Source: Paractinoplanes tereljensis (GTDB lineage Bacteria; Actinomycetota; Actinomycetes; Mycobacteriales; Micromonosporaceae). Taken from it: a DNA stretch of 64,000 bases. The position numbers and the translations under genes were made by a program. Location of the stretch: contig NZ_BOMY01000031.1 in the NCBI RefSeq assembly GCF_016862435.1, positions 124,001 through 188,000 on the forward strand, written 5' to 3'. Positions 19,452 through 24,188 of the stretch are shown here, one piece after another; position 1 is the first letter of the stretch, and every line of letters starts with the position of its first letter. The notes under the pieces were generated by a model. The model was given only the letters and a program-made list of their open reading frames with translations. It did no database searches and was not told where the DNA came from.

Positions 19452-19562
19452 TTACCTGCGGCGGGCGAGCAGGTACGCCTGGGGGCAGGATTGGCCTTCG
19501 CCCGGCGGCCGGTTGGCCTGGAAGACCGTGGTGAAGCCGGCGCCGGTGGCGTGCTGTTCCAT
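19452..19562 (-). pseudogene. 3' remnant of a gene, possibly a methyltransferase tail
   Basis: An open stretch of 36 codons with strong G/C third-position bias ends at a TAA. It encodes a peptide beginning MEQHATGAGFTTVF and ending CPQAYLLARRR. The alternation GAGFTTVF...AYLLARR is like the last two strands of class I SAM methyltransferases, but it is too short to assign. Codon bias fades upstream of about 19590, so this looks like the surviving end of a truncated gene. It lies between the MMPL gene and the inverted repeat at 19600. Confidence 0.35.
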
Positions 19563-19599
19563 CTCCGCGGCCGCCCGCCGAGATGGGCCATCTTCTATT

Positions 19600-20019
19600 A
19601 ACCGGTTCAGGCGGCCTGGTCGGCCGACCAGTAGGTCGTGGCCGATGAGTGCCGGCCGAGGTGTCCGTCGAACAGGGTGCAATCGTTGTCGTTGCGGCTC
19701 TGGGTGCCGGGTGCCTGCTGGGCCGGGCACCAGGTGTACGGGTTGATCTCGGAGGCGCTGAGCGTCCACTGCAGCCACCACATGGTGGCTTCCACCTGCT
19801 GGCCGAGCGCGGCGTGCGAGCCTTCGTGGCCGTGTTCGAGTTCGCAGCCCAGCTCGGACTGCAGACTCGGCGCCGCGCTCGGGAGGCCGTCGAAGAAGGC
19901 CAGCTGGGACGCGTCGAGCGTGATGCGGGCGGGACAGGTCGTCAGTTCTTCGGTATCAATCGACATGCATCCATGTATTCCCTCGTTGGGCCGCCGCACA
20001 CGTACTAACTGAACCGGTT
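19600..20019. repeat. 11-bp inverted repeat flanking a single gene
   Basis: AACCGGTTCAG at 19600-19610 and its exact complement CTGAACCGGTT at 20009-20019 bracket the 119-residue Cys/His protein gene. The left copy overlaps that gene's stop codon and the right copy lies in its upstream region. Each contains the 8-bp palindrome AACCGGTT, so they could be paired operator sites or ends of a small mobile cassette. No target-site duplication is visible. Confidence 0.45.
19607..19966 (-). CDS. Small protein with two Cys-GHxGxH motifs
   Basis: A 119-residue cytoplasmic protein of unknown function. Its two halves each carry a matching motif: GCELEHGHEGSHAAL (about residues 43-57) and DCTLFDGHLGRHSSA (about 95-109), i.e. 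C-x5-GHxGxH and C-x4-GHxGxH. Such Cys/His knuckles recur in small actinobacterial and phage proteins and could bind zinc. Between them is a Trp-rich segment (MWWLQWTLSASEINPYTW). The ATG at 19966 was chosen over a more upstream start that adds 11 unconserved-looking residues. It is the last gene on this strand of the micropeptide cluster. No family assignment is possible from the sequence alone. Confidence 0.65.
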   Translation of the reverse strand: MSIDTEELTTCPARITLDASQLAFFDGLPSAAPSLQSELGCELEHGHEGSHAALGQQVEATMWWLQWTLSASEINPYTWCPAQQAPGTQSRNDNDCTLFDGHLGRHSSATTYWSADQAA

Positions 20020-20030
20020 CTGTTGGCGGC

Positions 20031-20120
20031 TCAGCCGCCGTGGTTGTAGGGGGCGCCGACGGTGTACAGCAGCAGCGCGAGCGTGGCCAATGTAGTCAGG
20101 GCGTAGGTGAAGCGGCGCAT
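20031..20120 (-). CDS. Single-span micropeptide 1 (GAPxxxGG tail)
   Basis: A 29-residue peptide. It starts MRRFTYAL, has one hydrophobic span (LATLALLLY) and ends TVGAPYNHGG. Basic residues at the N-terminus predict an inside-N, outside-C orientation. An AAGGAGG ribosome-binding site lies 8 nt before the ATG and is formed by the last codons of micropeptide 2. The C-terminal half is shared with its two neighbours (LALLLYTxGAPxxxGG), so they are recent tandem duplicates. Its stop lies inside a GGCGGC-TGA-GCCGCC hairpin. Function unknown; a signalling peptide or small membrane subunit is possible. Confidence 0.7.
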   Translation of the reverse strand: MRRFTYALTTLATLALLLYTVGAPYNHGG

Positions 20121-20124
20121 GGGA

Positions 20125-20214
20125 TCAGCCTCCTTGCCAGTGCGGAGCGCCGGCCGTGTAGAGCAGCAGCGCGAAAGCGGCCAGGGTCAGAGCGAGGTGC
20201 AGGGTGCCGGTCAT
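20125..20214 (-). CDS. Single-span micropeptide 2 (GAPxxxGG tail)
   Basis: A 29-residue peptide beginning MTGTLHLAL, with hydrophobic core LAAFALLLY and tail TAGAPHWQGG. Its ATG overlaps the stop of the DUF5317-like frame (ATGA), and it is separated from micropeptide 3 by only four bases. The junction GGCTGATCCCATG is identical to the one before micropeptide 1, direct evidence of tandem duplication. Third positions are almost all G or C, as in real genes here. Function unknown. Confidence 0.7.
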   Translation of the reverse strand: MTGTLHLALTLAAFALLLYTAGAPHWQGG

Positions 20215-20843
20215 GGGATCAGCCGCCCTGCTCGTGCGGAGCGCCGATCGTGTAGAGCAGCAGCGCCAGGGTGGCCAGGGTGCAGAGCGCCAGGAACAGC
20301 CGGCGCCGGGACAGCGTCATGCGGTCTCCGCTCGGGTCGGCGCATCGCGAGCAGGACGAACGCGCAGGCGCCGCCGCCGATCAGGATGTCGCCGGGACTG
20401 ATGAGGGCGTGCAGCGGTGCGAGCGGGATCGTGTCGCCGAGGATGGCGGCCCGGGTCTGCTCGTTCGCCGCGACGTTCTTGGGTGTTTCGCCGGTGGCGG
20501 CCCCGGCGTCGTACGGCATCCGGCCGTTGAGCGCGATGGGCAGCCCGTTGAGCAGCGCGCCGAGCACGATCAGCAGGCCGGCGACCCGGAGTGCCACCGG
20601 CCGGCGCGGCAGGTTGACGGCCAGCCAGGCCAGCACCGCGCCGAACACGACGACGAGGGTTACCGGGCCGTGCAGAATCGGCACCCGGTATTGGGCGAAT
20701 TGGGCGGCCGCGGCGAGCCAGACGAGCCACAGCGCCTTGACCTCAATGGTGCGCAGGCCGCCCAGGCGACCGCCGGAAAGGTATCCGAGTGCCACCCCCG
20801 CGAGCGGCGGGGCGGCCATGAGAATCGCAAATCGATAAGACAT
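20211..20843 (-). CDS. Membrane protein, DUF5317-like
   Basis: A 210-residue polytopic membrane protein. The core (about residues 1-165) resembles DUF5317 proteins: a conserved GLRTIEVKALWLVWLAAAAQF segment, LLIVLGALLNGLPIALNGRMPYDA, and LGDTIPLAPLHALISPGDILIGGG. The function of the family is unknown. The last 35 or so residues (after MRRPERRP) overlap micropeptide 3 in another frame and show poor third-position bias, so the functional protein probably ends near 20320 and the tail is carried along. Start at 20843 or 20852 cannot be decided. It heads the micropeptide run on the minus strand and is probably co-transcribed with it. Confidence 0.6.
   Translation of the reverse strand: MSYRFAILMAAPPLAGVALGYLSGGRLGGLRTIEVKALWLVWLAAAAQFAQYRVPILHGPVTLVVVFGAVLAWLAVNLPRRPVALRVAGLLIVLGALLNGLPIALNGRMPYDAGAATGETPKNVAANEQTRAAILGDTIPLAPLHALISPGDILIGGGACAFVLLAMRRPERRPHDAVPAPAVPGALHPGHPGAAALHDRRSARAGRLIP
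20219..20320 (-). CDS. Single-span micropeptide 3 (GAPxxxGG tail)
   Basis: A 33-residue peptide beginning MTLSRRRLFLALC, with core LATLALLLY and tail TIGAPHEQGG. A GGAG ribosome-binding site lies six bases before the ATG. The gene lies wholly inside the 3' end of the DUF5317-like frame, in a different frame on the same strand. In this stretch the micropeptide frame has nearly all G/C third positions while the longer frame does not, so the micropeptide is the better-supported product. Its arginine-rich start is longer than in its paralogues. Function unknown. Confidence 0.7.
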   Translation of the reverse strand: MTLSRRRLFLALCTLATLALLLYTIGAPHEQGG

Positions 20844-20918
20844 GGCAGCCATTTCCGCGATTGGCTCGGCCGCGCCCCGGTGACGGGGCGCAGCCTGCCT
20901 GTCCGCAGAAGGGTTGGC

Positions 20919-20981
20919 CTAGCGGGTCGGGCCCGCCCAGGTGCGGGTGGGTCCGGCCCAGGTGCGCTCGTTCTTGATCAT
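20919..20981 (-). CDS. 20-residue peptide with duplicated RTWAGPT
   Basis: A tiny reading frame encoding MIKNE followed by RTWAGPT, RTWAGPT and a final Arg. A GGGGGA ribosome-binding site sits five bases before the ATG. The two heptapeptide copies differ at three third codon positions (GCC/GCG, GGA/GGC, CCC/CCG) and at no amino acid, which suggests the peptide sequence is kept by selection. It lies upstream of the DUF5317-like gene on the same strand and divergent from the MFS exporter. Tandem core repeats with Trp recall precursors of ribosomally made peptides, but no modifying enzyme is adjacent. Function unknown. Confidence 0.5.
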   Translation of the reverse strand: MIKNERTWAGPTRTWAGPTR

Positions 20982-21144
20982 TTCATCCCCCGATGAGAAG
21001 TGGTCGGAATTGCGATGAGCACGACCATAGACCCGGCCGGCCGCGATCCGAAACAGCAATTGGTGGTCGCGAACCCGACACCGCTTTCCGGTCGATCCGG
21101 GGGGATCATGTCTTTGCGGGAAACTGCAATAACGGGGGCTATTC

Positions 21145-22335
21145 ATGACTACCGCATTCCATCGTTTCTGGGCGGCCCGGCTGATTTCGTACGCCGGTGA
21201 CCAGATCGCCCGTACCGCCTTGCTGGTCGCGGTCTTCGACCGGTACGGCGGCGTCGCCGTCGGCTGGTTCCTGCTCGCCGCCACCGTGCCGCGGCTGTTC
21301 GGCCCGGCGCTCGGCGCGCTCGCCGATCGCTTCGACCAGCGGCGCATCATCGTGACCTGCGACCTGACCCAGGCCCTGCTCTACACGGCGATCGCCCTGC
21401 TCAGCCCGTCGCTGCCGGTGCTGCTCGGGCTGGTCGCGGCCGCCTCGGTCGCCGCCACCACGTTCACCCCGGCCGGCCGCAGCCTGCTGCCCGAGCTGGT
21501 CGAGCCGGAGCGGCTCGGCGTGGCCAACGCGCGCCTCGCGGTCGGCGTCAACATCGGTTTCGCGGCCGGCCCGGCCCTGGGCGGCCTGTTGCTGGCCACC
21601 GCCGGCCTGACCCCGACGCTGCTGCTCGACGTCGCGACGTTCGGCGTCTCGGCGGCACTCGTGGCCGGGCTGCGGCCGCTGTCCCGGCGGGGTCCCTCGG
21701 CCCGCGAGCCGCTGTCGGCGGTGCTGCGCGACGGCCTCGGCGTGGTCCGCGGCAACCTGGTCGTCCGGGCGGTGGCCTGCGGTTTCCTGGTGCTTGTCAC
21801 GTTCGCGGCGCTGGACAACGTCGCCGTCGTGCCGCTCGTGCGGGACAGCCTCGGCGCCGGCCCGGTCGCGGTCGGCCTGCTCACCTCCGCCTACGGCGTC
21901 GGCATGGTCGCCGGCCCGCTGCTGATCGCCCGCGGCGCCGACCGCCTGCGAATAGACCTGATTCTGTACGCGTCACTGCTGATCATCGGCGCCGGAACGA
22001 TCCTGACCGGCCTGAGCTGGGCGGTCGCGATCGCGGTGGCGGGCCAGGCCGTCGCCGGTGCGGGCGCCGGCTGGCACAACGTCGCCGCCGACACCCTGGT
22101 GCAGCGGCACGTGCCGCCCGCCTGCCTGGGCACGGTCTTCGGAACGATCTACCTTTTCCCGTACGCCGCGGAAGCCCTCGCCTACCTGGCCGGCGCCGCC
22201 CTGCTCGGCGCGGTCGGCAGCCGCTGGCTGTTCGTCATCGCCGGCCTGGGCGCAGCCGCAACCCTCGCGGTGGTCGGCCCGCTGCTCTCCCGCGCGCTCA
22301 CCCCGGCCCGACGTGATCTCGTCGCGGTTGGCTAG
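21145..22335 (+). CDS. MFS transporter (enterobactin-exporter-like)
   Basis: A 396-residue twelve-span major facilitator of the EntS/MFS_3 type, with RLISYAGDQIARTALLVAVFDRYGG at the start, the loop 2-3 motif GALADRFDQRRII and a second half beginning near LVVRAVACGFLVLVTFAALDNVAVVPLV. Proteins of this branch export siderophores, peptides or drugs. It is transcribed away from the micropeptide cluster, and the divergent gap (20982-21144) is the likely shared control region. An in-frame-independent 61-codon frame starts at 21015 and overlaps its start, but I do not call it. Export of the neighbouring peptides is a hypothesis only. Confidence 0.85.
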   Translation: MTTAFHRFWAARLISYAGDQIARTALLVAVFDRYGGVAVGWFLLAATVPRLFGPALGALADRFDQRRIIVTCDLTQALLYTAIALLSPSLPVLLGLVAAASVAATTFTPAGRSLLPELVEPERLGVANARLAVGVNIGFAAGPALGGLLLATAGLTPTLLLDVATFGVSAALVAGLRPLSRRGPSAREPLSAVLRDGLGVVRGNLVVRAVACGFLVLVTFAALDNVAVVPLVRDSLGAGPVAVGLLTSAYGVGMVAGPLLIARGADRLRIDLILYASLLIIGAGTILTGLSWAVAIAVAGQAVAGAGAGWHNVAADTLVQRHVPPACLGTVFGTIYLFPYAAEALAYLAGAALLGAVGSRWLFVIAGLGAAATLAVVGPLLSRALTPARRDLVAVG

Positions 22336-22458
22336 AGGTCTAGTGTCGAAATGACGACCGGGCAGCGAAGAGTACCTTCCAACCGCCGCCTAAACGAACC
22401 GGGCTGGTCAGCGCTGTGTCCTCCGTCGAGACGGTTCATAGGCGCGGACTCACCGCAG

Positions 22459-23805
22459 CTACCACGTTGGGATCAGTTGGTTCTCGATTTGATGCTGGAC
22501 CAAGAGAGTCGACACTCGAAAGTGCCCAGCTAGTTCAACGAGCGCAGAATCCTCCAAGCCGCTATGCACACCATCATCGACCAGCCTTGAGGCTATGCCT
22601 TGCGCTGGCGCGAGAACCTCAGCGGCGAAAGCCCGTTCCGTCTTCTGGCGATCCGTATATGCAGAAGTCACCAGGAAAGTCGGGGTGTTGCGCCATAGGA
22701 CATGCCACAGCGCTCTCGCAAGAACGAACCGCTTGGAAGAATCTGGTTGGCGGTGACTCACGACCAGTAGGGGTAGGCCGCCGTCCTTCAACTGACCCAG
22801 GGCGTGAATCCCAAGAGTATTCGTTGGCCTGGTCACGTCCGTCAGGAGGCGTTCGATTTCGAATGTCTGCTCATGACCCAGACCCATCGAATTCCTAACT
22901 AGCTGCGCTTGAGCCCAGCCCAACTCCCAGGGACGCAAGCCATTCCACTTCGGGGATGGGCGCGCCAGCGATTTAAGCTCCGCAACGTCTCCGCTGGGAC
23001 GGGACGTCAAATTATCGATTTCGCCCTTGACGGCCGAAACCCAGCTAAGCGTAGCTGCAATCTTGTCAGGATCAACAACATCTAGGAAGTCACCCAGGAG
23101 ATCAGGATCGGAGAGTTGGTCCGAGGTCCTCACGATATCATCGGAATACTTAAGCGCCTCAGAGTACGGGTCGAGACCGAGCCTGGCTGCGGCCAAGCAA
23201 AAGTCGGCTTCATCCGTATCTGCACCCTGAATACTCGCCCACTCGGTGGCCAGGGGTGTTTCGCCAACTCCCTGTTCGCGAAGTCTATCTATTACTGACT
23301 CAACGAAGTTGGCGAGGCGTTGCGTCAGCAAACCGCCGTCGATAGAGACATTCCCGCTTGTCAGGAAACGGACCGGGCGCTCTTCAGCAACGCTACCCCT
23401 GTCCGCAGCCCAAATAATTCTTGCGGTATCCCCTTCAGGCATGATGAATAAGTCGGGCCAAAGGAATCCATCACCTACACCTCTCAGCCCGTGCCGCGCC
23501 CTGTACCTCTCGCCATAGCCGCTCCACAGCGCATCATAACGAGCAGGCAATCGAGACAATGCCGTCGCCGGCCGAGAGTCTGCCTTCAGGAACCACCAGT
23601 TGTACGCCACCCACTCGGCGAGAGGGTACAGAGAAGTGAAGATCGACCTGCGGGAACTTCCCGACTCTCTGTCTTCCACCAACGTGACACAGTCTGAGCC
23701 GGCGACGATGCTCAGGTGAGCCCACGTTGCCTTAAGCTCTGGCGCCCTAACTTCGGGAGCGGAAAGCCATTCCCATCTAATCTGAAGGTCCGCATCCCCG
23801 CTCAT
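22459..23805 (-). CDS. ImmA/IrrE-like protein with degenerate zinc site
   Basis: A 448-residue protein. The C-terminal 120 residues follow the ImmA/IrrE metallopeptidase pattern: a core strand GLPLLVVSHRQ, the helix RFVLARALWHVLW, then ERAFAAEVLAPAQGI (Glu at about 390) and a DNA-binding-like end FRVSTLLVQHQIENQL. The expected HExxH is RALWH (364-368): the first His and the Glu are lost and only the last His remains, so metalloprotease activity is doubtful. The N-terminal 300 residues are of unknown fold. The gene overlaps its upstream partner by 4 nt and has noticeably lower GC than its surroundings, suggesting acquisition by transfer. A sensor, antitoxin-like or defence role is possible. 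Confidence 0.6.
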   Translation of the reverse strand: MSGDADLQIRWEWLSAPEVRAPELKATWAHLSIVAGSDCVTLVEDRESGSSRRSIFTSLYPLAEWVAYNWWFLKADSRPATALSRLPARYDALWSGYGERYRARHGLRGVGDGFLWPDLFIMPEGDTARIIWAADRGSVAEERPVRFLTSGNVSIDGGLLTQRLANFVESVIDRLREQGVGETPLATEWASIQGADTDEADFCLAAARLGLDPYSEALKYSDDIVRTSDQLSDPDLLGDFLDVVDPDKIAATLSWVSAVKGEIDNLTSRPSGDVAELKSLARPSPKWNGLRPWELGWAQAQLVRNSMGLGHEQTFEIERLLTDVTRPTNTLGIHALGQLKDGGLPLLVVSHRQPDSSKRFVLARALWHVLWRNTPTFLVTSAYTDRQKTERAFAAEVLAPAQGIASRLVDDGVHSGLEDSALVELAGHFRVSTLLVQHQIENQLIPTW

Positions 23806-24188
23806 GAGAGCCCCTCCGGCAATTCGTCTACCGTCAGCGGATAGCCCTTGTAGTGACCCTGCGCTTGATTCACGAGCCTGCCCTCATACACAACATCGCC
23901 CTGCCGATGCCATACGTACCGAGGGTAGTCGCCTTCCCACGGGGCGCCGATGGCGCCGGCAGCCATCGCTTCACGAAGCCACCCTGTCAGTTCATCGGCG
24001 TCAGCGAGCTTCGGATCACACTTGCTCGCGTCCGCACGTGGTTTGGGCGGTCCGGCAAAAGACGGGTAAGTCTTGTGCTCGCAACTACCGACGTACCGCA
24101 CCGTCGCAGCAAGGCTTTGAAGGTCTGTGCCCTCCGGCGGCACACAACGAGTTCGCCTGAGGGGCCTGTGGCGGCGGGGAGCGCGCAT
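23802..24188 (-). CDS. Small partner protein of the ImmA/IrrE-like gene
   Basis: A 128-residue protein with a basic N-terminus (MRAPRRHRPLRRTR) and a conserved-looking body: YVGSCEHKTYPSFAGPPKP, RADASKCDPKL, LTGWLREAMAAG, WEGDYPRYVWHRQGDVVYEGRLVN and GHYKGYPL. It has many His, Lys, Arg and Trp residues that could form a catalytic or nucleic-acid-binding surface, but no family was recognised. Its TGA overlaps the ATG of the ImmA/IrrE-like gene, so the two form one translationally coupled module. I chose the ATG at 24188; an in-frame start at 24290 would add 34 residues. A perfect inverted repeat lies about 105 bp upstream. A toxin-antitoxin or defence pair is one reading. Confidence 0.55.
   Translation of the reverse strand: MRAPRRHRPLRRTRCVPPEGTDLQSLAATVRYVGSCEHKTYPSFAGPPKPRADASKCDPKLADADELTGWLREAMAAGAIGAPWEGDYPRYVWHRQGDVVYEGRLVNQAQGHYKGYPLTVDELPEGLS

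Follow-up and report, generated by a model that had tools for sequence, protein, structure and literature searches.

In one group of actinomycetes, the DUF5317 gene is almost always accompanied by genes for one to fifteen micropeptides. The explanation preferred here, to which we give about even chances from the comparison of sequences, is that the DUF5317 protein would bind the body of interchangeable one-pass subunits, and that these would display a specificity tail outside the cell. The locus from which the study started lies in the window, i.e., the whole stretch of 64,000 nucleotides of Paractinoplanes tereljensis DNA that was analyzed, and comprises the following features:

20211..20852, minus strand: DUF5317 gene (PF17248 match over residues 36-166, 8.7e-15)
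20219..20320, minus strand: micropeptide 1, MTLSRRRLFLALCTLATLALLLYTIGAPHEQGG, 33 aa (profile match 7.5e-18)
20125..20214, minus strand: micropeptide 2, MTGTLHLALTLAAFALLLYTAGAPHWQGG, 29 aa (profile match 7.8e-9)
20031..20120, minus strand: micropeptide 3, MRRFTYALTTLATLALLLYTVGAPYNHGG, 29 aa (profile match 1.7e-14)

The three tandem minus-strand frames described in the initial annotation were recovered with their 4-nt gaps, directly 3′ of the DUF5317 gene and, in transcription order, with lengths of 33, 29 and 29 aa. The junction said to occur twice in identical form, GGCTGATCCCATG, is indeed present two times. Other details required adjustment. The LALLLYT segment attributed to all the copies is FALLLYT in copy 2. 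The good ribosome-binding sites proposed for the three frames hold for copy 3, which has a perfect Shine-Dalgarno sequence, AAGGAGG (20135-20129), formed by the CAA GGA GGC (Gln-Gly-Gly) codons that close micropeptide 2, but copies 1 and 2 display only GGAG (20329-20326 for micropeptide 1) and GGGCGG, respectively. The third-position G/C content, 91.2% over 91 codons, is high rather than nearly total. The stop codon of the DUF5317 ORF lies within the ATGA at the start of micropeptide 2, and micropeptide 1 is contained, in a different frame, in the run-on end of that ORF.

When the complete genome (10.8 Mb) was searched in six frames with the micropeptide profile, 26 of 67 first-look candidates being scored, the three window sites were the only ones found at E ≤ 0.001. 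Since they are the sole matches in their own genome, and since members of the family are found next to DUF5317 in genera other than this one, the window micropeptides are not chance open frames, and their proposed nature as real coding sequences is supported. An RNA element or DNA repeat was considered in place of genes and rejected: an Rfam search of positions 19500-21400 gave no match, the 94-nt tandem repeat is the gene unit itself, and all changes in the codons of the GAP motif were synonymous in the three groups for which they were counted. Concerning the flanks, an MFS transporter gene (21145-22335, plus strand) is divergent to the DUF5317 gene on its upstream side, and a small ORF with no Pfam match followed by an MMPL gene is found downstream. 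Separately, the G+C content falls to about 56-61% at 22250-24000, against about 70% elsewhere; this region surrounds a gene (22459-23805) with a weak match to IrrE-like peptidases and is possibly foreign DNA.

The distribution of both partners was determined at several taxonomic depths. A DNA pattern for the micropeptide core was found in 7 of 100 genomes, all of them among the 60 of the same genus and none among the 40 others, while the reversed pattern, used as a control, gave 2 matches in all. DUF5317 occurred in 10 of 67 genomes of the genus, 29 of 300 of the family (37 loci), 100 of 394 sampled from the class and 108 of 396 sampled from the phylum. A micropeptide profile built from 34 peptides matched 28 of 300 genomes of the family (Actinoplanes and relatives; apparently the same sample as for DUF5317) when all six frames were searched. 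The profile matched 26 of the 29 genomes with DUF5317 and 2 of the 271 genomes without it (Fisher p = 6.5e-32, uncorrected for relatedness and with the two genome lists compared by hand). The three DUF5317 genomes with no profile match (G147, G233 and G252) all have divergent peptides. As to the two opposite exceptions, the match in G306 (E = 3.9e-4) falls inside an open frame of 4616 aa and is probably due to chance, while G333 contains a real-looking, intact orphan micropeptide and a PF17248 search of its genome found no match. Order-wide, 5 of 298 genomes matched the profile, corresponding to three DUF5317 genomes plus two weak matches. The pair is found also in another order, in Nonomuraea gerenzanensis, where DUF5317 is directly followed by ...LATLLYTVGAPWDSH. 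The largest number of copies was that of Paractinoplanes durhamensis, with 15 in one tandem array and a further 2 next to another DUF5317 gene. An association with phages or plasmids was discarded, as no phage DUF5317 match was found and the sole "plasmid" record of DUF5317 is an 11.85-Mb Nonomuraea replicon.

The 37 family loci were scanned with a uniform rule (ORF of 24-48 aa, hydrophobic, with a [GA]AP tail), which takes in open frames and may therefore pass over broken copies. The scan gave one or more sense ORFs near DUF5317 in 34 loci (81 over 96.5 kb in all); the second ORF of G242 looks like chance and, while counted among the 81 in the scan and in the charge analysis, was dropped from the distance and ATGA counts. 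Inspection added diverged forms in G252 and G044b, which end in VAVAPYTQGL and VAVAPYNSPH. The initial annotation had asked whether copies recur beside DUF5317 genes; at least one does so at 36 of the 37 loci. Far from DUF5317, 6 sense ORFs were found in 359.8 kb, 5 of them being family members from the second arrays of G190 and G230, and there were no antisense ORFs in 543.8 kb. These second arrays (L221 in G190, L135 in G230) have no DUF5317 of their own and lie about 3-4 kb from the first ones; in G190 an ABC transporter pair is located between the two arrays.

In 60 DUF5317 loci from other lineages (387.8 kb counting both strands), the same scan gave only one possible peptide. It is a 27-aa ORF in L079 (2058-2141, plus strand), MRKWTLLRWLLAVAAIVVAGGAPTKWA, with a good Shine-Dalgarno sequence and a start 5 nt after DUF5317, and is possibly an older or independent micropeptide. 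As the DUF5317 genes of other lineages are thus mostly without peptide, the peptides are not needed for a general role of DUF5317. Conversely, orphan copies with no adjacent DUF5317 were found in G156, G207, G328 and G242, in addition to G333. In G242, an intact micropeptide is followed by a decayed DUF5317 remnant (L109, about 1686-1900; L220, about 2204-2347), of which 48 aa could be aligned with 87.5% identity to the intact DUF5317 that the genome has elsewhere. In the genus g31 (G242 and G328; L122, L124 and L109), the first micropeptide has little Shine-Dalgarno sequence and shows TAGCAT about 8 nt before the ATG, as in leaderless transcripts.

The 62 DUF5317 rows placed in a tree (midpoint-rooted for drawing only) are divided by a branch with 98/95 support, which has all the 37 peptide-associated rows, i.e., 36 loci plus Nonomuraea, on the same side, together with P0070 and P0072, whose context is unknown; the locus without peptide, G044c, falls outside the peptide-bearing branch. 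The peptides are encoded on the same strand as DUF5317, downstream in 25 rows and upstream in 12, which requires two changes on the tree, with adjacency kept. Of the 22 loci in which downstream copies were scanned, 16 have a copy whose ATG overlaps the stop of DUF5317 in the form ATGA; in the case of the window, G004 and G050 this is copy 2. Neighbors were clustered using ORFs of at least 70 aa in stretches of about 6-16 kb, with family names assigned by eye and DUF5317 itself clustering in 35 loci. Apart from DUF5317, each neighbor was limited to 8 loci of the 37 at most; the most frequent were ABC ATPases (8), large NB-ARC-type regulators (7, at scattered distances) and a reductase-like protein (5), in varied positions, while response regulators were present in 4, also at scattered distances.

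Searches for known families gave little. The window micropeptides matched no model of Pfam, NCBIfam, PADLOC or PHROGs, and the 34 peptides of the profile gave only scattered Pfam matches (best E = 0.0065, with at most 3 of 34 members per family). At least 453 relatives are present in the protein database at E ≤ 0.01, and the 120 listed are mostly of 33-35 aa. The family is therefore unannotated only in a restricted sense: its members do exist as database entries, but the named ones among the 120 listed are called "hypothetical protein" and neither Pfam nor NCBIfam has a model that the window copies match. No paper on DUF5317 (PF17248) or on the micropeptides was found in the open-licence PMC literature, judged from titles.

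The micropeptides share a layout with a basic start, one hydrophobic helix usually closing in LYTxGAP, and a tail of 4-9 residues. Lys and Arg residues before the hydrophobic stretch outnumber those of the tail in 76 of the 81 ORFs (151 versus 5 residues in all), an excess from which an N-in/C-out orientation is predicted, in support of the earlier placement of the tail outside the cell. The core LLYT[IV]GAP appears in 111 of the 120 database members listed. The GAPxxxGG ending earlier taken as shared identifies a common tail-bearing family, but the tail is better described as GAP plus one of several discrete words. These are of 4-6 residues, mostly 5, in the 120 listed database peptides and 77 genome peptides, and reach 9 in diverged scan forms. 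Five residues follow GAP in 104 of the 120, where the commonest words are HEHGG (20), YEHGG (17), FEHGG (11), MTEGS (10) and HEQGG (5); HLSxG/HISxG and SxMS are further types. The same vocabulary (HEHGG, MTEGS, HLSIG, HISTG, SEMS) recurs between distant loci and differs between near-identical bodies. For instance, copies 4 and 12 of P. durhamensis are 97% identical over the 60 nt up to GAP (92% over 84 nt), with 53% nucleotide identity in their tails, YEHGG and HLSTG. The succession HLSIG then HISTG occurs in three loci (G004, G045 and G049), with different codons in G004. The idea of the GG ending as a by-product of the next Shine-Dalgarno sequence is partly true, as GGAGGC is present in 12 of 17 GG-ending copies with the next copy within 10 nt versus 5 of 29 without it, yet GG is kept where no copy follows.

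The selection estimates rest on small counts, without a significance test. The GAP codons gave pN 0.000 versus pS 0.27-0.51, and the helix pN 0.04-0.12 versus pS 0.16-0.33. Tails are conserved between orthologues (pN 0.047 versus pS 0.661, and 0.024 versus 0.354), whereas within the P. durhamensis array (13 copies, leaving out copy 1 and copy 11, the latter with an uncertain start) they gave pN 0.461 and pS 0.400, and the N-terminus also gave pN about equal to pS. The fast tail change within the array could reflect relaxed constraint. The three window copies, when pooled, gave a pN/pS of 0.73. Across 37 rows (36 loci plus Nonomuraea), and uncorrected for phylogeny, the distances between bodies correlated with those between DUF5317 proteins with rho 0.80, and the distances between tails with rho 0.47. 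Among 466 locus pairs with DUF5317 less than 50% identical, 33 had an identical tail word and none an identical body. Taken together, these correlations and the sharing of tails indicate that the body is tied to DUF5317 and the tail largely to something else.

Concerning DUF5317 itself, the window gene scored 55.5 bits with PF17248, against a curated cut-off of 25, and is thus a member of the family. An AlphaFold2 model of the stretch 20843-20316 (pLDDT 91.2, pTM 0.84) predicts five transmembrane helices, of which helices 4 and 5 are separated by short strands. The invariant residues in an 88-row alignment include N77, N99, N106, M109, P110, D137, S149, G151 and D152, and the most conserved polar ones (N99, N106, D137, S149 and D152) are predicted on or near the outer face. 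By the positive-inside rule, the C-terminus would be inside and the N106-D152 stretch outside, on the same side as the micropeptide tails. The residues past about 20320 are read as a run-on across micropeptide 1. Their alternative interpretation as a selected part of the protein was rejected, because over the copy 1 region of six run-on loci pN/pS was 1.54 in the DUF5317 frame and 0.83 in the micropeptide frame; the test sets apart the DUF5317 frame only, as the third frame gave 0.84, similar to the micropeptide frame, with stops in 4 of 6 loci. Two database proteins with the DUF5317 Pfam label (P0020 and P0022) have at their C-terminal end an in-frame hydrophobic stretch plus GAPHEHGG, and these ends may likewise represent run-on of the frame; a GAP tail is also seen at the end of P0028 and P0039, where no clear helix accompanies it.

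Among solved structures, neither a sequence search nor Foldseek gave a sequence match or a close fold for DUF5317 (no Foldseek row at E ≤ 0.001), and LspA was not among the Foldseek rows. An hhalign comparison with LspA/Peptidase_A8 gave a probability of 9.8% over 25 columns (DUF5317 residues 16-40), which lie away from D137 and D152, so these residues are not aligned as catalytic aspartates. Four distant actinobacterial loci (L080, L085, L096 and L097) encode a fusion protein in which DUF5317 is joined N-terminally to an MFS transporter, and the micropeptide scan found no peptide in these loci. An MFS gene adjoins DUF5317 in the window, and a homologous one is likewise divergent in P. durhamensis; in the neighbor clustering, no MFS cluster was present in 3 or more of the 37 loci. 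The fusions and the adjacent genes may hint at a transport role for DUF5317.

Under the preferred explanation, DUF5317 and the micropeptides would form a self-contained, two-part membrane system. DUF5317 would be a five-helix inner-membrane protein, and each micropeptide a one-pass subunit, N-in/C-out, with its helix and LYTxGAP cap docked on DUF5317 and its tail of 4-9 residues left at the outer surface. Tandem duplication would provide several subunits that share a docking body but differ in tail word, and one DUF5317 would thereby be armed with alternative specificities, the tails presumably selecting an outside partner or ligand. Of the roles for which the initial annotation had considered the peptides suited, that of a small membrane subunit is thus preferred, a signal is the main rival and a bacteriocin-like peptide is disfavored.

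As a signal, the micropeptide would be a membrane-borne precursor, cut or exported near LYTxGAP by DUF5317 or a general protease, and the released tail would be a pheromone with several dialects. This accounts for a conserved body with an exchangeable C-terminal end of nearly fixed length as well as the anchored subunit does. It fits also the N-in/C-out charge pattern and the fact that the tail and the N-terminus are the most variable parts among tandem paralogues, and the lack of a solved structure closely like DUF5317 leaves room for an enzyme activity. It is nevertheless considered rather unlikely, because no regulator recurs widely near the module (the largest group being the 7 loci with NB-ARC-type proteins), tail words are common to several genera, and no profile relation of DUF5317 to LspA was found. 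Tiny precursors with a basic start, a hydrophobic stretch and a short active C-terminus are known from the streptococcal SHP/Rgg systems, and the micropeptides resemble them in these traits; here, however, the partner is a polytopic membrane protein, the tails are common to genera, and across the 37 loci no cognate cytoplasmic regulator of the Rgg type recurs with the peptides.

A toxin/immunity pair, with the micropeptides as membrane-active bacteriocins or toxins and DUF5317 protecting the producer, would agree with small hydrophobic tandem peptides beside one membrane protein and with the patchy spread of DUF5317 in the family. It seems improbable given that tails are common to several genera and conserved between orthologues, that PADLOC gave no match, and that orphan copies exist, an intact one being apparently tolerated in G333 and another beside the decayed remnant in G242, which has another DUF5317. 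The type I toxin-antitoxin peptides of the Ibs/Ldr type are also tiny, hydrophobic and sometimes tandem, but here there is no Rfam match in the window stretch, the partner protein is conserved and a copy is retained in a genome in which the search found no DUF5317. A purely structural subunit, which would only stabilize DUF5317, with neutral tails and a copy number set by drift, is given an equally small chance: the body tracks DUF5317, and pN is about equal to pS in the N-terminus and tail of the P. durhamensis array, but tail words are retained by orthologues and reappear at distant loci. KdpF, CydX and AcrZ, of about 30-50 aa and one helix, are encoded with or act on a larger membrane protein, and the micropeptides resemble them as small single-helix partners of such a protein. 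Those are single fixed subunits, however, in contrast to the 1-15 tandem variants with exchangeable, predicted extracytoplasmic tails found here.

These results define a conserved micropeptide family for which there is no profile model, and offer a first handle on DUF5317, a membrane family for which no paper was found. With exchangeable tail words set apart from a putative docking body, specificity becomes concretely testable. More tentatively, and with a confidence that falls well short of even, the module may be a peptide-display or signaling system of actinomycetes, in which DUF5317 would handle interchangeable one-pass peptides, with a tail vocabulary common to genera and arrays of up to 15 copies.
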